In this document: piece by piece, positions 5,199-62,735 of the stretch | How positions within the stretch are numbered: the stretch's first letter is position 1 | Layout: every line of letters starts with the position of its first letter | DNA from: Arctopsyche grandis | Taxonomy: Eukaryota > Arthropoda > Insecta > Trichoptera > Hydropsychidae | Length of the DNA: 64,000 nt | Direction of reading: 5' to 3' | NCBI RefSeq assembly: GCF_051622035.1 | Contig: NC_135364.1 | Location: 21,231,001-21,295,000, forward strand | Notes under the pieces: generated by a model | Database searches by the model: none | What the model was told of the DNA's origin: nothing | Seen by the model: the letters and a program-made list of their open reading frames with translations, nothing else | Translations under genes and position numbers: made by a program

Positions 5199-8100
5199 AT
5201 GACATCTGTACAACGACAACCTGAAAAAAAAGTCGTCATCGTTGAAAATCCTAAAATGCCACCTCAAAACTTTTTTACAAAAAACACTATATACAAAGTG
5301 CGTCCACACAATCAAATCATAGCGGCTCTCATATGTAAGCTTTTAATATACCTACATATAATCACTTCATTATGATTTTTTCACGCTTACTGACGGAATG
5401 CTGAATTTAGGCAACCTTGGCATGTTTTGCTTCGGTTGTGCCATAGGATGGACTTCACCAACTGTCGAAAAATTGGAATCATCAGGATTTTTTACACCTG
5501 ACCAGGCCACTTTGAGTGGCTCGTTGGTGTCAATCGGTGCTTTGTTGGCGTTGCCCATTTTTGGCTTCATTTCTACAAAATTTGGACGGAAAGCTGGTGG
5601 ATATTTCACGGGCATAGTATTTGTGGTATGGTAAATTATATATTATATAATATAATATGAAATATTTCATTGTTAGAAGGAAGTAAAATTTAATTCTTGG
5701 AAAAGCATTTATTTTTCAGGTCTGAAAACAACTTTCGTAAGCGACTTTATGATCATTTTCTATTCATCACATTATTCAATTTATAACAATATATAACAAT
5801 TTGTTGTTTATTTTTTTTTTTAATATTGATTTAGATCAATGTAAATACAAAAATATACAAAAAAAACTTTCATTTAAATTTGACATTTAGGGCGAAATCA
5901 CATAGGGAAGAATGGTACATCGTGTTTTTGATTTTGATTTTTAAATGCTTTTTATTATTACGAAATTATGTTCACAATACATCTTATATCTATTTTAATA
6001 GCTACTGATCTACTGATCATTTTCTATTTTACAATTTAATTTAATTTGGTTAGTAATCATAGTATTATATTATTCTAATGTTAATCTACAATAGAGATTA
6101 TTATAGATGTTAATCTACATTAGATTAGCATAATAGGAAAAAGAGCTCAAAAACCTATTTACAATCCTTTTACATCGTGTGCTTGGCTCCCCACTGTGGG
6201 GGATCTCTTACATTTCTTCAAATATGAGATACACCGTTATCGATCACTGTCAAGCAAGGATAAATACAAGGATAAAATTTTACCGAAAACACTCCAGGGG
6301 GTGGTTTTGGGACGGTGTGTGCCTTGAATATGTGCTGGGCATGCCACATTTTTTTGGCATATTTAAAAGCATCTAAAAAAAACCATGTGCCGCGTTTTTT
6401 CCTGTGTGATTTGATATAAAAGTATATGCATTCGTTTGATTGAATTCACTACATATAATTGAAGCATTTCAGGATTGGAATAAAAGATTTTATCTGTTAT
6501 TGATTACAACAAATCAATGATGAAACAATATTACTTCTCCGTCGTTTTGCATTTACATACATACTTTACATTTCTACCGTACCACTAAAGTTTTTAACTT
6601 TCAGATTGGATTCTCGATGAAAATAAATGCCAGATCGCCTGCTATATTGCTGACAGGTCGACTCCTATGTGGCTTAGCTGGTGGTTCTTCCACCACCTTG
6701 CCGACTCTGTACATCGGAGAGACTGCCCAGCCAGAGTATCGTGGATTACTATCATCGCTGATGATGGTTGAGTACGGAGTGGGAATTTTATTCACCTTTA
6801 TAGTTGGAATGTTTGTGGATCCTCACCTGTTGGCTCTCATACTATTGCCGGGGCCGATATTTTTCTTGGTAGCATTTTGGTTCATGCCGGAAACACCCTC
6901 ACAGAAACTGCGACAGGGAGACGAGGAGGTGATTAATAAGTGGTTTATATTATATATTTCTTTTATGATTTTATTTTATTTGAAAATATAACTATCAGGC
7001 TGCTGCTAAATCGTTGGCCTGGTTGAGAAAGTTGCCGTTGAATTGTGAGCAATTAAGTGAAGAGCTTGCTGACACAGCCGAGCAGCTCGGTTTGGCTCTT
7101 CCTTTAGATCCATCTAAAAAAAAAGGGTTTTTCATTAAAAAATCACAAAGTGAGTAGTTTTAGAACACATAATATTTTTATATATATGTTACAAAATATA
7201 ATTGGAAATTATTATTTTATTTTAGAACCAACGTCATCACAAGAAACATACATTCCAATAACAAGAGAAGTTCCAAAAACATTAGAACAAGCCAAAAAAG
7301 GCAAAAACTTCATGCATATGATAAAATTACTATGTAAGTATATATAATTTTACTTTATGATTAGTTATAGTAATAAATGTATTAGTTTCAGATTTGATTA
7401 ATGTTTATAGTTACTACCAATGTTGGGCTTTCTGGATTGCATATCACTTTCACATTGGTCACTGCTCAAACCTTCACGGGTCTGTTCGCCGTAGCCACGT
7501 ACACGAAAAATATTTTCAATGACGCTGGAAGTCCTATATCTTCAGATTTGGCTTCCATCTTGTATGCTATTTTCTTCCTGGCAGGTTCGTCAATCGGATG
7601 TGTTTTGATGGATAAAGCTGGACGAAGAGTAAGTAATACATTCGGTATAAGATAGATGGTGATATTGTAAACAGTATAAAAGTTGTGCATATGGTTAATA
7701 AATGTGATGTTTTAAGATTTTGCAGATCACCTCTAGCGCAATTGTGTTCGTTTGTCACATGTCTCTGGGTATTAGCTTGAAACTGATGGGAGATGGACAT
7801 CATGGAGTAGTCAATTACATACCGTTGATTGCGTTACCTTTAGCGGTTTTCGCATATAATATGGGAATCGCTGTTATTCCTTTTGTCATCGTATCGGAAA
7901 TTTTCGATCTTGAAGTAATTAATCTCTGAAATTAAAGCGTTGTTTATAAATGTTTGTTTTTATTAACGTGTACTTTTTTCGTTCGCAGGTGAAAGATTTG
8001 GCTACCGCTATCATTATGACGTATGTTTGGTCTTCGGTTTTTATTTTGTTGACTTTCTTTCCAACATCAGTGGAGGCTATCGGGCTATCTTCTACATTTT

Positions 8101-9468: not shown

Positions 9469-9857
9469 ATGCTACGTGCATACGAGTACTTCAGATATAA
9501 TTACTGTGTATCGATCGGTCCATGCTCTCTGGGACACTTGCTTTTGAGCGAATTTGCTTTCGTTTGGAGATTGTTCGGTTGGGTGTTGCACCGTGGAGGC
9601 TGAGCAACCCCGTAATTAGGTGTTTTTTTCCTGGGGGATTTGAACTGGAAAAATAAAACGGCGGAAAAAAACTAGCCGGACGAGATTTCTTCTCCCCCTG
9701 GACCACAAAACTGGTTTATTCATGAGAATAGACTGAACCGTAGAAATGGAGTGCGTTTTTTGTGCAGGACGTGTCGCTCAAAGTGTGGCTCGCACGCGCT
9801 CTCCTTTGGCGATTTTCATCTGACCAGATTTTCTCAGATTGTAGTCATCTTATATAC

Positions 9858-10233
9858 GGGTCTACCTCACGGGCCCGAATGTGAAAAGCCCGAAAACGCA
9901 AATATCGGAAGGCAAAGATCGAAAATCGAAAGATAAAAAAAGAGTGCATGGTAAACGGTACATACTCACTTAATTTGCACGAGCAGGATAAAACAGGAAC
10001 AAGAGGAACAGGCTTTTCGTCCCGTATTCGGCGCGCGCACATTAATACGGGAGGAAAAGCCTGTTCCTCTTGTTCCTGTTGTATCCTGCTCGCGCAAATT
10101 AAGTCAGAATGTACCGTTTACCATGCACCCTTTTTTTTTTGATCTTTTGACTTAAGATCTTTCGATTTTCGATCTTTGCCTTCCGATATTTGCGTTTTCG
10201 GGCGTTTCGCATTCGGGCCCGTCACGGAGACCG
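9858..10233. mobile_element. Foldback element, copy 1 (9-bp TSD)
   Basis: A near-complete palindrome with two arms of about 170-190 bp around a short centre near 10030. The ends read GGGTCTACCTCACGGG at the left and the complement of CGGTCTCCGTGACGGG at the right. The flanks CTTATATAC (9849-9857) and CTTATATAG (10234-10242) are 9-bp direct repeats with one mismatch. Long inverted arms with a 9-bp duplication suggest a Mutator-like (MULE) or other foldback family. There is no transposase. The small open frames inside are by-products of the palindrome. Confidence 0.75.
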
Positions 10234-10253
10234 CTTATATAGATATGTATTTG

Positions 10254-10643
10254 GGGTGACCGTGAAAAAGTCAAAGTGAAAAAGTCGAAAATATTCGTTT
10301 ATTATGCATACATATGAAAAATGGTTAGTATGTATATATATCAGTGGCGTGCGGTAAAACTTTCTCTCCCCCCGTCATACATCCTCACTTAATTTGCGCG
10401 AGCAGGATACAACAGGAACAAGAGGAACAGGCTTTTCCTCCCGAATCACATTAAACAAGGCTGTGTGACAAAAAGAAAGATAATTTCACCGCATGCCACT
10501 GATATAGTATATATACATACATAGTACCGTTTACCATGCACCCTTTTTTTGATCTTTCGACTTAAGATCTTTCGATTTTCGATCTTTGCCTTCCGATATT
10601 TTCTTTTTCGACCTTTTCACTTTCGGTCCCGTGAGGTAGACCC
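10254..10643. mobile_element. Foldback element, copy 2 (perfect 9-bp TSD)
   Basis: Same family as copy 1 and almost touching it. Left end GGGTGACCGTG, right end GAGGTAGACCC. Flanked by perfect 9-bp repeats ATGTATTTG at 10245-10253 and 10644-10652. The right arm is intact; the left arm is disrupted around a hAT-type insert (10342-10501). Confidence 0.72.
10342..10501. mobile_element. Short hAT-type element inside foldback copy 2
   Basis: Inverted ends CAGTGGCGTGCGGTAAA and the complement of CAGTGGCATGCGGTGAAA. The CAGTGG start is typical of hAT elements. The interior includes a piece of foldback arm (about 10380-10445), so the history is compound: either captured sequence or a rearrangement. 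The flanks give only a weak 8-bp match in a TA repeat. Confidence 0.5.
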
Positions 10644-10652
10644 ATGTATTTG

Positions 10653-18345: not shown

Positions 18346-19435
18346 TATTGGTTTGTATAGAACGGTATCATCAGTGCCAAAATGCATGGAACAAGTCGTC
18401 CGAAAGAAGTTATTGACGACCCAGAAGATTTAAGTCAAGTGGTGATATTCCAGAGACGATTCAGGACGAGTTCTCTCGGAAGAAACACGAGACATTAAAT
18501 ATAAGCAACCTCTTCCCAATTATGAAAACCACGTCTTTGAAAATAAGTTTTTGTGTACTTTTCCAGGTAAAAAATCAGAATACCCAAGACATTAAAAACC
18601 AACTTATATACGCAATTTAACTTTGAATCACCCACTTAAACCATTTTCAGTGCATCGTATCAACAATAAGGATATAGCTAAGTATTCCCTTTATTTATTT
18701 GTAAGTCTGTACGGTCATAATGTTTTCTCTTCTTACGCATTCGATTGACGCAATGTCCTGCCGAGTGCATTTCATGCATTACGCGACCGGATACATTAAA
18801 TGTGAATTTAAATACGAGTTTACATTTTATTTTTTGTCTTTTTGGCACACACATACACACTTTTTAAGTTGGGACCTCCCACGATCGTCAATAAATAGCT
18901 CGTTAAGCCGTAAAATATGTTTGCGAAACGTCAAAGTGACAATTGTGCGCGCGATGGATATTCGTGGAAGTCCAATTCGATGCACGCTTGTACAATAGCG
19001 GTTTTTGAAAAATTATCTCTTCCATGTACAAATTTCATGTTTGCGGTTCTGATAATGACACGTGAATAAATGGACCAAATAAATGACCAATTCTTGAAAA
19101 TTCACTACCACTCCATAATCGCTTCCATTATATGGAACGACAGAGAATCAATGTGAAAAATACTTATGTATGTATATAGACCAAGTACTCATCAAGTGTT
19201 CCCAAATTACGATTCGAGGCCCATAATATGTACCAAATCGTTAGCCTCTCATAAATGTTAAATATTATAGAATTTCCGAAAAATGTAGAATCTCACCCAT
19301 CCGGTCCTCAAATGTTATCCGTGAAATATGCTTATTCGGACCTCGTCGTAAAAAGTTTTGAAATCCCTAGTTTAAATTTTTATTTTATTTTTTATACATA
19401 CATATGTATGTGTACATACATATATGTATGTATAT
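18346..19435. other. No recognised feature
   Basis: About 1.1 kb of mixed composition. Short open frames on both strands near 18680-19000 lack motifs or splice context. Confidence 0.35.
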
Positions 19436-19797
19436 ATATATACCAGGAAAGCCTAACAGGTAACATCCAATGCGCTTTCCTGGCCAATTATAAAGATCGC
19501 TAAACAATTTACAGAGCGTCATAGAGAAATGTATTGACCAATTTGATAAATATTTTACAGCATTTTATATATCAGCAAATTCAAAATGCTATAAAATTGT
19601 GTTTTGTGAGAGATGTTGGAACCAATTGTTGGAACCGTTCCAATGAAATCAGATAAATTGGCAAACTGTGATACTGCGATCTGCGATCGACCTGGAGTCA
19701 CCTATCTAAGGTCTGGCCAGCAGTACCAGGCCAGGGATTAAACCCGTGACTAGTCTGTTGAAAGCATTACACGCTAATCATTGAGCTGTGCTGGTAG
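19436..19797 (-). mobile_element. tRNA-derived SINE with 3' hairpin
   Basis: Reads right to left: tRNA-like head (A/B-box region about 19730-19797), the shared body (complement of CTTGGATATGTGACTCC, here diverged), then the hairpin with stem CCAGGAAAGC (19443-19452) and GCTTTCCTGG (19474-19483). Confidence 0.72.
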
Positions 19798-19959
19798 TTG
19801 TGTGATATTTGAAATGTTTAATTGACATCTAATAGGTCAATATCAATCAAATTAAGCTGATGGACTCATACGTGGTCTACTCCCTCAAGTTGCACCTCCC
19901 ACAGCTGACATCATTTTGGCAAATTGGCCTACAACATTGCCTTACCGTAATTGTATGTT

Positions 19960-21805: not shown

Positions 21806-21854
21806 TCATGTCCAATGATTTAATTTTAAAGATCCGCTATATCTTGAGAATCAT

Positions 21855-22255
21855 ATTTATTTATTTTATGCCAGGAACGCTTAACAGGTAAACCCCAATG
21901 CGTATTCCTGGCCAATTATAAACATCGATAAATAATTTATAGAGAAATTTTACAGAGCATAATACAGATATCTATGGAGAAAGTTGACAAACATGGTTTG
22001 CACTTTTGCAACAAATTTATTAATCTGCAAATTCGAGATGTTGAAAATCCGAATTTCGCAAGAAATAGGACAATTTGCCAATTTGTTGGAACTTTCAATG
22101 AAATCAGATAAATTGCAAATCTCTGATAGGAAACGATTGAGCTGTAGTCACATATCCAACCCAGCCAGCACACCGCCAGCAGCACCGGGCCAGAGATTGA
22201 ACCCATCACCACTCAGTTGATGGGTTCACGCTAACCACCGATGTATGTATGCTGC
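21855..22255 (-). mobile_element. tRNA-derived SINE, nearly complete
   Basis: Reads leftward from a head near 22255 (GGTTAGCGTGAACCCATC complement; B box GGTTCAATCTC) through the shared body to the 3' hairpin at 21871-21911 and a (TAAA)-like tail. The body includes CTATAAATTATTTATCGATG, also found at 62620-62645. Confidence 0.75.
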
Positions 22256-22737
22256 TAGTTAAATATGCAAAATATACACTATGAGAAAGTCTGAAATGGA
22301 TTTCCAATATAATAATAATCATTTCCATGATTATTTAATAAAAACTGTAGTCATTATTTTCTCAGAAACTGGTAATTTGTATTGCACGAGATCTAGTTTA
22401 CTTCCCTGAGAGCATAATAGTGTAAAATTACCCTGTAATGAATATGCAAATTGCAATGCATTGCACTGCATTTTCAAATACAAATATACAATATTATTAT
22501 TCCTATAAGGCGCTTTTAAATCATTACATTTTGTTTTGTTTGAAAACAATCGATTTCTTCTTTTAAAAAGAATGGTAATATTATTGTCGGCAAATATAGA
22601 AAACTAGTTTCAAAATCAAAATCAAAGATTAATCCTTAAACTCGTCCGTATACATTTATGTATATCTTGACCCAGTTTTCGTCCATATTATATATCCATT
22701 TTTTATTATTATTTAAATACATAAAACAAACAAGTTT

Positions 22738-25872: not shown

Positions 25873-26590
25873 AGTCTATTTATTTATTTAATATACTTGG
25901 GGGAGGCGGCAGAGCCGATAGACCCAAGGGGTTTGATCAAACATATTTTAACAAATTATACATATGTATATGCAAATAAAATGAGAAAAATTAAAATACA
26001 TTAAAAAAACAATATTAAAATAAAAATAAGAGAGCAAAAAAAATATATATAAACAAAAACAAACAGAAATACGATTATGGGAAAGAAGAATTACAGAAAT
26101 CCTTTAGTTTTAAAAAAAGTATCAAGTTTATTCTTAAAAATATTAACGTTATCAGAAGTTACTATATCATTGGGAAGATTATTCCAAACTGAAACCACTC
26201 TGTTTGAAAAGAAAGAATCTCTGATCAATTTATTAGATTTTTTTTTTGGAGTCTAAGCGAGTGATATCTGAGGTGAGTGTTTACGTTGAATGTAATAAGA
26301 TTAAACATATGACAATTATAGTGATTATTAAGTATTTTGTAGACTTCGATTAAGTCACCTCTAGTTCTTCTCGTCTCCAAAGTAGTGAGATTCATTATTT
26401 TCAATCTTTCGTTATTGTTATAAGAAAGTGATTTGAGTTCAGAAGGAATCTTTGTAATTCTCCTTTGAACCCTTTCAATACATGTAATATCCTTTTTAAA
26501 ATGAGGATTCTATATGTTAAAAGCGTATTCTAGTCTAAGTCTGATGAAAGTTTTATATATTTTTGAAAAAAAAAAAAAATTTAGAAAATT
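25873..26590 (-). mobile_element. CR1/L2-like LINE 3' end with RT C-terminus
   Basis: Reading leftward from about 26550: RLRLEYAFNI, DITCIERVQRRITK, SYNNNERLKIMNL, ETRRTRGDLIEVYKIL, then after a shift FFSNRVVSVWNNLPNDIV and NIFKNKLD before the stop. This is the C-terminus of a CR1/L2-type reverse-transcriptase polyprotein. The 3' UTR ends at 25873 with a hairpin (CTTGGG...GGC.GCC...CCCAAG, 25896-25928) and an (AATA)n tail. Stops and shifts make it inactive. Confidence 0.78.
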
Positions 26591-29317: not shown

Positions 29318-29668
29318 GGGTCGATATTTCGAAAATCGAAAGATCTTGAGTCGAAAGATCAAAAAAAAATGGTGCATGGTAAACGGTACATACTCACTTT
29401 ATTTGTGCGAGCAGGATACAACAGGAACAAGAGGAACAGGCTTTTCCTCCCATATTAATGTGCGCGCGCAGAATTCGGGAGGAAAAGCATGTTCCTCTTG
29501 TTCCTGTTGTATCCTGCTCGCGCAAATTAAGTGAGTATGTACGTGAGTATGTACCGTTTACCATGCACCCTTTTTTTGAACTTTCGACTTAAGATCTTTC
29601 GATTTTCGATCTTTGCCTTCCGATATTTGTGTTTTCTGCAATTTAACATTCTGGCTCGTCACGTATAC
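29318..29668. mobile_element. Foldback element, copy 3
   Basis: Homologous to 9858-10233: the long inverted arms contain GAGCAGGATACAACAGGAAC and its complement. The centre differs slightly, and a TGAGTATGTACG unit is repeated in the right arm. The termini are eroded and no target duplication is visible. Preceded by (GT)n at 29279-29300. Confidence 0.7.
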
Positions 29669-29669
29669 C

Positions 29670-31300
29670 AGTAAGATACATACATATGTGCATCAATTCA
29701 TTTTAAGGAGCGTGATATAAGCACTAGCAATCTGGATTAGTTTTAGATAAAAGGAATACAGGAAGAAATTTGTCATTATTTTCGATTTTACTATCTTAGA
29801 TTTATATATTACTTATAAAATATTTTTTGAACGTAAAAGAAGTGCATTTGTAACTGTTTGCAATGATTTCAAAGATCTTCAACCACACTTTCAAGACACG
29901 CGATTGAAATATCATTAATGATTGCTGGCCTGCGACGAAACATAGCACTTATAACTGAAGAAGAGAGCTGAAGATTAATTATAACTGAAGAATCATACAA
30001 ATATACATACATATTCAAACTATCGGGTCATAAAATTTCAAGCCAGGAACTTTCATGTAAAGTATGCACCATCAAATGAATATATACTATAGGTAAATAC
30101 ATACATATGTAATATGCAGTCTACGAGTTAACCTTCATAACTAAACAAATTTTCGAAATATCGTAATATTTATTTTAACACTGTCCACTTTTAAAAGTCG
30201 ATTGCATAGCAATTCAACACGCATGAACGTACCCGATTATTGACACACCCCGTCATTTGAGAACCGCTGACGAGCGTATAGTAAACAATTAAAAGACACT
30301 CCTGTCACGCCACTCGAAATATCCAGCTCCGCATCGGCCACTTCCCAAGTGCCGTAACATACGCAAACACACACACAGTAAATCACAAACCCCTGCGTAA
30401 CATACGATCTCGTGTAATTACGATCCTGAGAGAATAGCACACGTCCTATCGGGAATCCGCTTATCTAAACTGCGAATCGACTTCTACTGTATCCGTTCCG
30501 AAACGAGCTGTGTAAAGATAAATAGATAGATATAACACACTGAGATTTTTTCCTACAAAGCGGAATGTCCGACGAAGGGTAACTCTCGTTTCCTGTTAAT
30601 TAAAAGTGAAATAAAAAAAAAGCTATCTGTTATCGATCGTCGATGGCGTTTGTCGGTCGGGTAACCACCACGCTGAATGCTCATATTTCAGGCAATCAGT
30701 TTAATGGTGCGTGTAAAAAAGTCATCAGCGCACAGCTGGAAAGTTTCGCGATCATCGAAAAGTCTGAAACATCCAGAACGATCAATCTTATCGATCAGCA
30801 GTAGTCAAACATTGTATGTACTACTGTAATTAAATAAAATGACGAAAAATTCAATCCTTTACAAATTATTTGTACCATAAGAAGCCAAGCCCAATATATG
30901 AGGTGTGAAGAATGTACTATACATACATACGGTGACCCATTTTTTTTTGGAGTATAGTCTATACATAGTGTAAGATTTATAACCTAGAATGCATGTATGA
31001 ATGATTAAGTTAGCATGTATGAGTAGAATGAATGATGGATTTTTTGAATCATGCGTTTATTGTACCAGTTCTACATACATACATATATTTGTTTAAGTTT
31101 ATAAGGATTAGTTCTCATCTTACTATTTTTTTTAGTTCGTCTGAATGTATTATTTCGAGCGGCAAATGAATTTAAATTACAATATGAAATGTTCTAGGTG
31201 GGTCATTCATCAGTCGCAAGTAGTGTTTCCAATTATTCGATTTCATCAACTATTCGAATATCGAATAGTAAAATTCGAAATATTCGAATATTCGAAAAAA
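29670..31300. other. No recognised feature
   Basis: Mostly AT-rich. The 30180-30480 and 30560-30790 segments are less AT-rich and could be conserved noncoding DNA, but nothing specific is supported. Confidence 0.35.
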
Positions 31301-31530: not shown

Positions 31531-31612
31531 TGTTTAACAAGATTTGTTTTTCCTTGAAATCTCACTTTTCTACCTCATTAATACTTGTTTTGGTCTTCAT
31601 TCTGTATTATAT

Positions 31613-31925
31613 GGTTACCTGACAACTCGTTCACAGATTTTCCGTAAACCGATGATGCGCTCCAGGCATTACGTATACGGCCATCTCTTTCTCACCCCGT
31701 CTGTTCACCATGATCTTGTTTACTCTGCCATTATGCAGCCATCTCTTTCACAGACCATTTTTTCACCGATAACAGACGGTCTGTGAAAGAGATGGCTGCA
31801 TATGTAATGGCATAGTAAACGAGATCATGGTGAACAGACGGGGTGAGAAAGAGATGGCCGTATACGTAATGCCTGGAGCGCATTATCGATTTACGGAAAA
31901 TCTGTGAACGAGTTGTCGTGTCACC
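31613..31925. mobile_element. 313-bp foldback element with perfect 9-bp TSD
   Basis: Two arms (31613-31756 and 31778-31925) are inverted copies of each other around a 21-bp loop. Ends GGTTACCTGACAACTCG and the complement of GGTGACACGACAACTCG. Flanked by GTATTATAT at 31604-31612 and 31926-31934. Long arms, G-rich ends and a 9-bp TSD suggest a Mutator-like non-autonomous element. Distinct in sequence from the 9858 family. Confidence 0.8.
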
Positions 31926-31934
31926 GTATTATAT

Positions 31935-40544: not shown

Positions 40545-40625
40545 ATATATTTATTTAAGTTTGAACCATTGTGATATTACAGGAATCCCGAATACACCAC
40601 AATTATATACTAGTTTGCTAGTATT
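40545..40625 (-). mobile_element. LINE/SINE 3' tail with hairpin
   Basis: TATTTATTT tail complement, then stem CATTGTGAT / ACACCACAAT around the loop ATTACAGGAATCCCGAAT. Only the 3' end is left. Confidence 0.5.
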
Positions 40626-43065: not shown

Positions 43066-43150
43066 TTTATTTATTTCATACCAGGAAGGCATTACAGGTA
43101 AACCCCAATGCGCCTTCCTGGCCAAATTACAAACAATACAGCATTTTTTA
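43066..43150 (-). mobile_element. SINE 3' tail with perfect hairpin
   Basis: TTTATTTATTT then stem CCAGGAAGGC (43081-43090) and GCCTTCCTGG (43112-43121) around loop ATTACAGGTAAACCCCAATGC. No body present. Confidence 0.72.
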
Positions 43151-43159
43151 TTGTATATA

Positions 43160-44410
43160 GATTCTTCTTCTTGTTAATGCCTTGTCCGCATCCGGACGTT
43201 GGCGACCACCTCGTCGATTATTTGAATATATCCGCATCGGTCTTCAGCGGCTCGGAACAGCTCTTCGGCGCTCATATCGGTCCACATGCGCATGTTTCGA
43301 AGCCAAGATAACTTTTTCCTGCCAATCCATTTTTTTCCTTCTATTTTCCCCATGGTTATCAAACGGAGAAATTCGTATTTTGGACCCCGTATCATGTGTC
43401 CGAGGTACTCCATCTTTCTCCGCTTGATGACAGAAACAAGTCCCTGCCTCTCCCCATCATGCCGAGGACAGCTTCGTTTGATATTTTTTTGGTCCACGGA
43501 ATCTTCAGCATACGCCTATAGACCCACATCTCAAAAGCTTCAATGCGGCTGATCATCTTGGTTTTCAGAGTCCACGTCTCACATCCGTGTAGTAATACTG
43601 TCCAGACGTAGCTCTTCGCGAATCTCAACCGCGTATGAAGATTTAGATGCTTGTTTGTAAGCGCCGCCTTCATTTTTACAAATGCTGTTCTAGCCATCTC
43701 GATGCGGATTCTTAGATCTTCATCTGGGTCCATCTCTTCATTCAGCCAGGTACCCAGGTATTTGAATCTTTTAACTCTTTCTATCACCTCTCCATCCAAG
43801 GTTAGATTCCCGGTGTCTGTTTGCATTCTATCTACTATCATAAATTTTGTCTTCTTTAGATTTATGCGCAGACCTCTTCGATTGCTTTCTTGATGTACAC
43901 GGTCTAGAGATCTTTGCAGGTCTGCTAAATTTTCAGCGACTAGTGCCGTGTCATCAGCATATCTTATATTGGTGATCGTCTCGCCGCCCACCTTGATGCC
44001 CTCCGCCTCTTGGAGAGCATCGTGGAAGATGGATTCGGTGTAGGTGTTAAAAAGAGTAGGTGATAGGATGCATCCTTGCCTGACGCCCCGTTCTATAGGA
44101 ATCTCATCAGTGAATTGATCATCGACACGTACTACTGCAGTCTGATTCCAATAAATATTTCGTAGCAATCTGACATCTCTGTCATCCAGGCCAATATTTT
44201 TTAATGTTTCCATCAGGCGAGCGTGTTGGACACGGTCAAAGGCCTTTTCAAAGTCTATAAAGCAGATGTACACAGGTTTACGGACTTCTCTGCATCTTTG
44301 GAGTAGTGTTTTCAAACAGAAAAGGGCCTCTCGGGTACCCAAGCCTTGTCTGAACCCAAACTGCTCTCTATTAATCGCCTCTTCACACCGTGAGTAAATT
44401 CTGCCCTGTA
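43160..44410 (-). mobile_element. RTE-type LINE reverse transcriptase, 5'-truncated
   Basis: The best-preserved retroelement here: 317 codons then a one-base deletion near 43437, after which the original frame resumes to a stop at 43174. RT motifs in order: FGFRQGLGTREAL, FIDFEKAFDRV (motif A with its Asp), ERGVRQGCILSPTLFN (B), RYADDTAL (C, catalytic DD), KTKFM (D), FKYLGTWL (E), then CETWTLK and MEYLGHMIRG typical of RTE C-termini. The 5' half including endonuclease is absent. The single frameshift suggests fairly recent insertion. No promoter expected. Confidence 0.85.
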
Positions 44411-44442
44411 TATAGATTAATATTTGTTAATTGCTATGATCA

Positions 44443-52644: not shown

Positions 52645-52735
52645 AATTATTTATTTATTTATTATATACCTATATATACAAATGTGCCATAACAGGAATT
52701 ACTCCCCAAAAGTGACACATATGGTTACATTATTT
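52645..52735 (-). mobile_element. SINE/LINE 3' tail with weak hairpin
   Basis: TTATTTATTTATT tail complement followed by CAAATGTGCC, loop ATAACAGGAATTACTCCCC, and GTGACACATATG. Probably the 3' end of the SINE whose head lies at 53440-53530, split by the piggyBac-like element. Confidence 0.5.
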
Positions 52736-55124: not shown

Positions 55125-55205
55125 AATTATTTATTTATTTAAGTTTAAGTTTGGACCATTGTGGCATTCATGTGGAGTTTCTGCGCCACAATGGTCGAAA
55201 ATATA
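55125..55205 (-). mobile_element. LINE/SINE 3' tail with perfect 12-bp hairpin
   Basis: TTATTTATTTAAG tail, stem GACCATTGTGGC (55154-55165) / GCCACAATGGTC (55185-55196), loop ATTCATGTGGAGTTTCTGC. Confidence 0.7.
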
Positions 55206-55732
55206 CAGATATTAGAAAAAAAAATATATATACATATGTACATATACAGACAAAAATAGATTTATACATTATCATAAAAAAACAATAGCATTATTATATT
55301 AGTAGGAAAAGAAAAAATATCAAATAACAAAATACATAGTAGGGAATGTCTTGCATCTACAGCCAGCACCAATATATACATGTGAACGAGCCCCAAATAC
55401 AAAACCTCCCTGCAAGGCCCAAGTGGAAGAGAGAAGATCAGAACTCCATTCATTCATCACATCCAATTATTAAAATAATGATGAGCGCAGGCTACCAGAC
55501 AAATAGGCTAAAATAATTTCCATTAAACTATACTGAAGTGGAAAATATTACATTAAGGTCAATTGCCACTGTGTCTTGGCCGTGATGACCAAAGATAAGC
55601 GGCCGACGATGCCACCATAAAATAGCAATAGACCTTTCCATTAACGTACAAAGCAAGAGAGCAAAATCATTGATAATAGTGAACCATTTTTTGTGCGAAA
55701 AGAAACCATCCACGCCGATCTCCGCTTATGAC

Positions 55733-60654: not shown

Positions 60655-60885
60655 AAATTGAAACATCATAGAGATATCTATGGATAAATTTGACAAACAT
60701 TTTATAAATCAGCAAATTTGAAATGCCGAAAACTCGAACTTTTAGAGAATTATTTCTCTTCTTATGACAAGGTTGCCAATTTGTTGGAACCGTTTCAATG
60801 AAGTCAAATAAATCGGCAAACTCCGATAGGAAAGGATCGACCTTGGAGTCACATATCCAAGATCTGGTCACCAAGTGCGTTATTA
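60655..60885 (-). mobile_element. tRNA-derived SINE body
   Basis: Complement of 62310-62600 without the nested insert: ATGATGTTTCAA end, TTCGAGTTTTCGGCATTTC, CTTGGAGTCACATATCCAAG. The tRNA head is missing beyond 60880. Confidence 0.72.
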
Positions 60886-61189: not shown

Positions 61190-61270
61190 CTTGTCTAGGA
61201 CGGCGCATTGGGGTCTTCCTGTCAAGCCTTCCTGGTATATATCTATTTAAAAATAAATAAATAAATATAT
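61190..61270 (+). mobile_element. SINE/LINE 3' tail with hairpin
   Basis: CTAGGACGGC (61195-61204), loop GCATTGGGGTCTTCCTGTCAA, GCCTTCCTGG (61226-61235), then an (AATA)n tail to about 61268. Two stem pairs are broken. Confidence 0.6.
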
Positions 61271-62227: not shown

Positions 62228-62735
62228 AAGCATATGTAGATCCATGGTTAACATATAATGCTTTCAACTGTGTGGTCACGGGTTCAATCCCTGGCAGCGC
62301 TGCTGGCCAGATCTTGGATATGTGACTCCAAGGTCGATCCTTTCCTAACAGAGTTTTCCGATTTATCTGACTTCATTGAAACGGTTCCAACAAATTGGCA
62401 ACCTTGTCATAAGAAGAGAAATAATTCTCTAAAAATTCGAGTTTTCGGCATTTCAAATTTGCTGATTTATTTATTTATTTTATTCTAAACAGACCATTGT
62501 GGCATAACAGGAATTCCTAAAGCGCCACAATGGTCAAAAAATATAGCACAAAAAAAACAAAAATTTATAAAATGTTTGTCAAATTTATCCATAGATATCT
62601 CTATGATGTTCTGTAAAATTGCTCTATAAATTGTATATCGATGTTTATAATTGGCCAGAAAAGTGCATTGGGGTTTACCTGTTAGGCCTTCCTGGCATAA
62701 TATATATGTACGTATAAAAATAAAATAATTTTGAC
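62228..62735 (+). mobile_element. tRNA-derived SINE, full length, with nested insertion
   Basis: Head with A-box-like ATCCATGGTTAACATATAATG and B box GGTTCAATCCC; body CTTGGATATGTGACTCCAAG, GAAACGGTTCCAACAAATTG; 3' part CTATAAATTGTATATCGATG; hairpin 62655-62695 (CCAGAAAAGTGC / AGGCCTTCCTGG) and an A-rich tail. A LINE tail (62465-62578) is inserted in the middle. This copy defines the family's layout. Confidence 0.82.
62465..62578 (-). mobile_element. LINE 3' tail with perfect 12-bp hairpin, nested in the SINE
   Basis: TTTATTTATTTATTTTATT tail complement, stem GACCATTGTGGC (62492-62503) / GCCACAATGGTC (62524-62535), loop ATAACAGGAATTCCTAAAGC. ATTTATAAAATG-like sequence resumes the SINE on the right. 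Confidence 0.75.

Follow-up and report, generated by a model that had tools for sequence, protein, structure and literature searches.

A 3'-terminal hairpin with a conserved core and varying stems on LINEs and SINEs of Arctopsyche grandis

Retroelement ends in the window

The window is the whole 64,000-nucleotide stretch of contig NC_135364.1 of Arctopsyche grandis (Trichoptera; positions 21,231,001 to 21,295,000 of the forward strand), and coordinates given below without a further label refer to it. Near its 3' end lies a SINE that is split by the 3' end of a LINE. Both elements carry a hairpin with an AATA-type tail, as an earlier note had reported for this spot (62492-62535, RNA sense minus; 62655-62697, plus). 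The following features were annotated, with stem classes numbered as described in the next section.

62230..62730, plus strand: tRNA-like SINE with a head carrying a B-box-like GGTTCAATCCC, a core and a LINE-derived 3' tail with a class-1 hairpin, split by a class-2 unit (alignment of window copies)
62655..62697, plus strand: class-1 hairpin ending SINE 62230-62730, with a decayed 5' arm (covariance model, 38.7 bits)
62471..62562, minus strand: class-2 unit of 92 bp, a 5'-truncated LINE 3' end inside the SINE (seen as a gap when aligned with SINE copy 60662-60873, which is uninterrupted)
62492..62535, minus strand: class-2a hairpin, core and stem the same as in LINE L170:4127-4166 (z -8.3; 41.8 bits)
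60662..60873, minus strand: SINE copy without the class-2 insert, its own 3' end missing (window alignment)
61195..61236, plus strand: class-1 hairpin of the CAAGCC subtype, then an (AATA)n tail (40.3 bits)
43080..43122, minus strand: intact class-1 hairpin in a 5'-truncated copy past the end of an RTE-like LINE (fold and covariance model)
19442..19484, minus strand: class-1 hairpin carrying AAAGC/GCTTT, a paired change; it closes a SINE at about 19410-19810 (fold, covariance model and alignment)
21870..21912, minus strand: class-1 hairpin that closes a SINE at about 21850-22270 (covariance model and alignment)
55154..55195, minus strand: class-2 hairpin with intact stem and lost core, LINE remnant upstream (fold and covariance model)
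52677..52724, minus strand: degraded class-2-like hairpin with an (AATA)n tail (17.3 bits, E 0.081)
40564..40606, minus strand: degraded class-2-like hairpin with an AATA tail (17.0 bits, E 0.1)

The class-2 unit 62471-62562 is flanked by ATTTA, a 5-bp duplication whose limits can shift by a few bases, given that the tail of the unit is ATTTATTTA. Since the SINE copy at 60662-60873 lacks the unit and ATTTA flanks it, the two adjoining hairpins come from separate elements, of which one has inserted into the other. The SINE head is named tRNA-like solely after its B-box-like sequence, because ARAGORN detected no tRNA in the window. Three of the five class-1 hairpins of the window terminate such tRNA-like SINEs, and a weak coding trace of a LINE (55473-55529, E 0.039) lies upstream of the hairpin at 55154.

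Nine sites had been proposed to share one layout. Seven of them matched a covariance model at E<=1.1e-4, with 43080 and 19442 matching by construction as members of the eight hairpins (three classes) used to build it; those at 52677 (E=0.081) and 40564 (E=0.1) matched weakly. The LINE-like 3' end at 25873-25910 (minus strand) does close in another hairpin, of the CTTGGG...CCCAAG type, which is followed by a AATAAATAAATA tail and lacks the core. In an Rfam scan of the 64-kb window, no family reached its gathering score.

The window holds further features. A LINE reverse transcriptase frame of 344 aa lies at 43395-44426 (minus strand; RVT_1 E=3e-36), with the class-1 3' fragment just past its end; by its motifs we take this frame to be RTE-like. 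Two similar-looking sugar-transporter frames at 1563-2030 and 6524-6991 (plus strand), the first matching PF00083 and the second assigned by eye, are perhaps tandem trehalose-transporter-like genes. Self comparison of the window also revealed long near-palindromic repeats (9851-10649, 29329-29690 and 31605-31933; self-inverted at 82-89%), perhaps foldback elements.

Architecture of the hairpin

In RNA sense, the hairpin comprises a lower stem of 10-13 bp, an internal loop, a short upper stem and a variable terminal loop of 4-5 nt, and is followed by the AATA-type tail. Its length is about 43-45 nt, with classes 3 and 4b longer. The internal loop is 3x3 or 4x4 and mostly reads GC[AU]U on its 5' side, and the letters of the upper stem are U[AG]G[GA]/[CU]CUG. 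RNAfold folded all four parts in 6 of 8 examples from classes 1-4b, classes 5 and 6 being judged by pairing; class-4 copies L150-L152 fold alike. An upper stem of 4 bp is predicted in 6 of the 8, with only 2 bp at 19442 and none at 55154. Folding energies compared with shuffles give weak support for class 3 (z -1.45) and for the damaged stem at 62655 (z -0.64; 55 of 200 shuffles fold as well). An alternative pairing of AUU/AAU with bulges was dropped; by reading, it fits class 2b and not class 2a.

The proposed "loop" is not a simple one; it is an internal loop plus the short upper stem, flanked by the most conserved letters, and the terminal loop is variable. Nor does every site have the ACAGG core as proposed, because 55154 carries the exact class-2 stem without this core and without a predicted upper stem. 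Similarly, the stems had been said to differ completely; classes 1 and 2 have the outer CCA....GGC / GCC....TGG in common, and just the middle four pairs are replaced (GGAA/UUCC versus UUGU/ACAA). The outer letters CCA....G.C are retained between classes. When seven classes are aligned, TT.G and CTGT.A.G do not vary in the core, nor do CA, G.C, C and T of the stem, and UU.G ... CUGU.A is kept in all seven class representatives. The letters of the terminal loop are free across classes, and the 5' side of the internal loop is not invariant among the seven LINE types (GCAT, GCTT, ATAT, GACT and GCGT). One SINE (L138) carries class 3, as does one copy of unclear kind (L147:4252). Class 4 (L182), class 4b (L181) and a class-3 variant (L138:1072-1114) have the GNRA-like terminal loops GTGA, GCAA and GCGA, respectively, unlike classes 1 and 2.

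Genome-wide abundance

Counts were made on the 475.7-Mb assembly, in which the window lies on C10 and most copies are known as pattern matches only. The class-2 arm GCCACAATGGTC gave 8,475 matches (4 for the reversed control) and a two-arm pattern gave 11,346 (0 for the reversed control). The two-arm pattern fixes CCA/TGG, G.C/G.C and the core letters, leaving five pairs free, four of them central; class 3 and others escape it because they lack CCA. The 100 of these 11,346 matches that were listed all lie on C1 between 0.54 and 3.3 Mb and are not a random sample. Among them, 481 of 500 free stem cells are paired, and all ten lower-stem positions are Watson-Crick paired in 76 (81 with G-U). They comprise 58 hairpins of class 1, 32 of class 2, five of class 6, three of class 5 and two of class 4, and their 23 distinct arm pairs have 100 of 115 cells paired, where 2,000 whole-arm shuffles average 60.8 and reach 84 at most. 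The hairpin is a genuine and widespread feature.

The usual AAGGC/GCCTT form accounts for 46 of the 100 matches listed, from which several thousand copies are estimated genome-wide. The reported double change within class 1, from AAGGC/GCCTT to AAAGC/GCTTT, is real at 19442 and recurs in varied backgrounds, its 23 genomic copies neither proving nor excluding an excess within the class. When the third central place holds T or C, the genome yields just 115 and 21 matches, respectively. Among the 100 and 21 listed, respectively, they are mostly single broken copies, the exception being the recurrent class 4b, CCACATTGAC/GTCTCTGTGG, with two mismatches.

Other searches were set aside. Scanning IMG/VR with the loop pattern gave no matches, and a 14-mer gave at least 120 stretches, treated as chance, as a matching second arm was present in none of the 120 listed. 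A structure-only descriptor (29 forward versus 16 reversed matches, many in TA repeats) was too weak alone, and a motif scan allowing up to five mismatches was noisy (80 versus 56). The pattern CCTGT..TAAATAAATAAA (9,238 versus 505 reversed, overlaps counted) also picked up L156, which shows no hairpin, and an unrelated family, L153-L155, a separate AATAAA-tailed repeat with a CCTGTCTGTTGATTTTTCAATTAAT-like end and without this hairpin. Comparison by the loop alone did not set a class-5 hairpin apart from shuffles (327 of 2,000 as good against class 2a and 91 of 2,000 against class 2b).

LINEs that end in the hairpin and SINEs that share their tails

The search for a LINE with each stem class, suggested by the earlier note, yielded LINEs ending in classes 1, 2, 4, 4b, 5 and 6. 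Four LINE families have long frames of 960-988 aa, lengths that are measured stop to stop and do not in themselves prove the families active. L170 (C2) has a 988-aa frame (RVT_1 E=4e-26) with the class-2a hairpin at its end. Its Exo_endo_phos match is weak (E=2.7e-4; 21.2 bits, below the curated cut-off of 24.5), and several homologues list PF03372. A 234-aa frame ahead of it (L170:361-1062) has no Pfam match and is a possible ORF1. L182 (965 aa) ends in class 4 and L181 (960 aa) in class 4b; class 6 ends L174-L176, L188, L189 and L192-L196, with a 298-aa frame and a 972-aa copy (hairpin in L188), and class 5 ends the C-terminal remnant L173. C-terminal protein identity is 40-60% among the five families compared, and the named relatives, all insect proteins that are themselves unnamed or uncharacterised, come from Spodoptera, Parnassius, Euphydryas, Manduca, Aedes and other mosquitoes. 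The carriers thus have the marks of LINEs: a single frame combines reverse transcriptase with a weakly matching endonuclease, copies are truncated at the 5' end, and an ATTTA duplication surrounds one of them.

Sixteen LINE 3' ends (L181-L196, for the most part of classes 4b and 6) were selected on protein similarity and nothing else, and the core was present in 16 of 16, in decayed form in L183, L187 and L191. For class 1, only relics were recovered, and none of the 150 scored among 9,104 candidates was a class-1 LINE with a long open frame. L183 has a LINE C-terminus that shares 60% identity with class 4, then a class-1 hairpin with a decayed stem; L190 has a perfect hairpin after a LINE match with five stops, and L191 is further decayed than L190.

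The stem-loop lies at the very 3' end of both LINEs and SINEs, ahead of short tail repeats, and SINE and LINE 3' ends of this genome are homologous. SINE 62230-62730 can be aligned over its last ~140 nt, 74 nt of which precede the hairpin, with the class-1 LINE relic L183, and by this alignment the two have a classic SINE-LINE common tail. The SINE core beside class-1 hairpins (L137, L147) also precedes the class-3 hairpin of L138 (86% over 79 nt), and class 4 is found on LINEs (L171, L182) and, by eye, on the SINE-like copy L150. Judging by these junctions, it seems that SINEs acquired their tails from at least two LINEs of the group.

Covariation between source families

The earlier note argued that paired changes around a kept core imply selection on RNA structure, and comparison of the LINEs supports this. 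Across seven LINE types (class 1, L190; class 2a, L170; class 2b, L122; class 4, L182; class 4b, L181; class 5, L173; class 6, L176), 95 of 98 stem cells pair, and six of the 14 pairs have changed on both sides. Fifteen cells are changed on both sides, and none of 20,000 column shuffles reached 15, or 95 paired, although these types are few and related, classes 2a and 2b have one stem between them, and column shuffles ignore relatedness. A set with class 3 and the SINE class 1 gave 95 of 97 paired cells (0 of 20,000 shuffles) and eight double-changed pairs (10 of 20,000). In the five-LINE subset of that set, 69 of 70 cells pair, and the number of double-changed pairs is not unusual (3,665 of 20,000 shuffles). 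A three-class alignment has 94.7% of cells paired, compared with 35.1-50.5% when slid. Paired differences number one between classes 5 and 6, four between classes 1 and 2, and five between class 1 and class 5 or 6.

The stem is therefore held by paired substitutions and the core is conserved, with fixed lower-stem mismatches in two of the seven LINE types (a T-T in class 4 and two in class 4b). One C-T mismatch is also present in class-6 copies from long open frames (L188, L192 and L193). These mismatches in classes 4, 4b and 6 mean that a perfect stem is not required.

The covariation proposed for genomic copies is found at another level. Relative to their class consensus, the 100 matches listed have 475 of 500 cells unchanged, 19 with one-sided breaks, six with one-sided G-U changes and none changed on both sides; copies therefore decay after insertion without repair of pairing. 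Covariation lies between the source lineages, where pairing is kept from class to class, and a genome-wide alignment of copies is apparently the wrong level, because copy decay shows no compensation.

Under chance or plain common descent, by contrast, the 3' end would have been inherited from a recent ancestor, and its stems would be inverted repeats of no consequence, or else the terminal repeats of a DNA transposon. The families are indeed related, their outer CCA/TGG and G.C pairs are common by descent, and perfect arms look like small inverted repeats. In five of 21 family pairs, alignment of the 130 nt upstream likewise outscores 95% of shuffles (no more than 10 of 200 as good); these 130 nt fail in the other 16, whereas the hairpin beats shuffles by the same measure in 16 of 21 and not in five. 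Against incidental repeats stand the six of 14 positions changed on both sides with pairing kept, for which slid and shuffled controls are far lower, and the location of the unit 3' of LINE frames, where it is found 5'-truncated with a retrotransposon-type duplication. Nor are the stems unrelated sequences at different positions, a possibility raised by the earlier note, since the hairpin is 3'-terminal on LINEs with homologous proteins and its core aligns. We regard chance or mere descent as very improbable.

Discussion

One group of stringent-type LINEs very probably has its 3' recognition element in this hairpin, as do the SINEs with tails borrowed from these LINEs; a role in protein binding and priming is proposed. 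The results support the plausible suggestion of the earlier note that a partner LINE enzyme recognizes it; we infer recognition by the enzyme itself. The LINE protein would read the conserved core, UU.G ... CUGU.A, formed by the internal loop and short upper stem, and the lower stem would be needed mainly as a helix. Reverse transcription would start in the adjoining AATA repeats during target-primed insertion. As LINE families diverge, the mid-stem would drift by paired substitutions while the core is held. A steady core with a stem changing in matched pairs would be expected if the enzyme reads the core and needs just stem pairing.

Instead of recognition by the LINE protein, the hairpin could serve 3' end protection, transcript termination or processing, or export. 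A strong 3' stem-loop beside an A/T-rich tail would also stabilise RNA, and the hairpin occurs on LINE copies, presumed to be Pol II transcripts, as well as on SINE copies, which have a Pol III-like head. However, a stability element would need no conserved letters in its internal loop and upper stem, and UU.G ... CUGU.A is kept in seven of seven representatives despite 40-60% protein identity (five families); reading of the loop is also established for other LINEs (PMC4176376). Such other roles are accordingly improbable as the main explanation.

The closest known systems are the zebrafish LINEs ZfL2-1 and ZfL2-2, as described by Hayashi et al. (PMC4176376), which also have a 3'-terminal stem-loop with an upper and a lower stem. 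There, the stem is exchangeable but must pair and the loop is specific, bound by the region between endonuclease and reverse transcriptase. Exchanged stems kept movement (at about half the rate in one case), exchange or mutation of the loop stopped or strongly reduced it, and binding followed the loop; for UnaL2, altered stems are stated in the same paper to have strongly lowered movement. The loops of the two zebrafish LINEs differ and their stems were swapped by hand, whereas here one core is combined with at least six stem classes that changed naturally. This natural stem pattern agrees with the prediction of the zebrafish mechanism.

Plant L1 elements and SINEs, according to Ohshima (PMC3747384), similarly have a common 3' hairpin with compensatory changes in a stem of variable letters and with conserved loop letters, but they belong to another LINE clade with a poly(A) tail, a UCU conserved within the loop and CGAG beside the stem, and their core differs. 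Given the zebrafish exchange (PMC4176376) and the plant L1 signature (PMC3747384), the principle is already known and is found here in an unusually complete set. Insect SINEs with LINE-derived 3' tails are described in Lepidoptera (HaSE1/HaRTE1, PMC3272025; PxSE5/PxLINE1 and SfSE1, PMC8010984) and are thought to exchange tails; the word hairpin is absent from the main texts of both papers, and these pairs are likened to the present ones by description rather than by sequence. BmCR1B and Maculinea CR1 (PMC1925062) are likewise insect LINEs with one long frame and a short 3' UTR, but they have a poly(A) end, and the main text mentions neither hairpin nor stem-loop. No description of this hairpin was found in the literature searched, including the available text of PMC4176376, PMC3272025, PMC8010984, PMC3747384, PMC5135761 and PMC1925062; most subscription papers lay outside the search.

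A further, tentative reading, which we consider possible rather than probable, is that the conserved core is a common ticket, so that one active LINE family mobilises the tails of others whatever their stem. If so, class-1 SINEs would be copied, now or formerly, by class-2, 4, 4b or 6 LINEs, whose full-length frames are still open, and the stems would have diverged by neutral drift beneath one lock. Alternatively, the class-1 SINEs and their own LINE may have died together.

The A. grandis genome amounts to a stem-exchange experiment made by nature, with at least six stem classes on one core, full-length open frames in four LINE families and, by estimate, several thousand class-1 hairpins, of which some at least are SINE tails. 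This set supplies ready-made RNA variants for asking which letters a LINE protein reads. It also lets one ask whether SINEs switch to the enzyme of a relative after their own partner dies.
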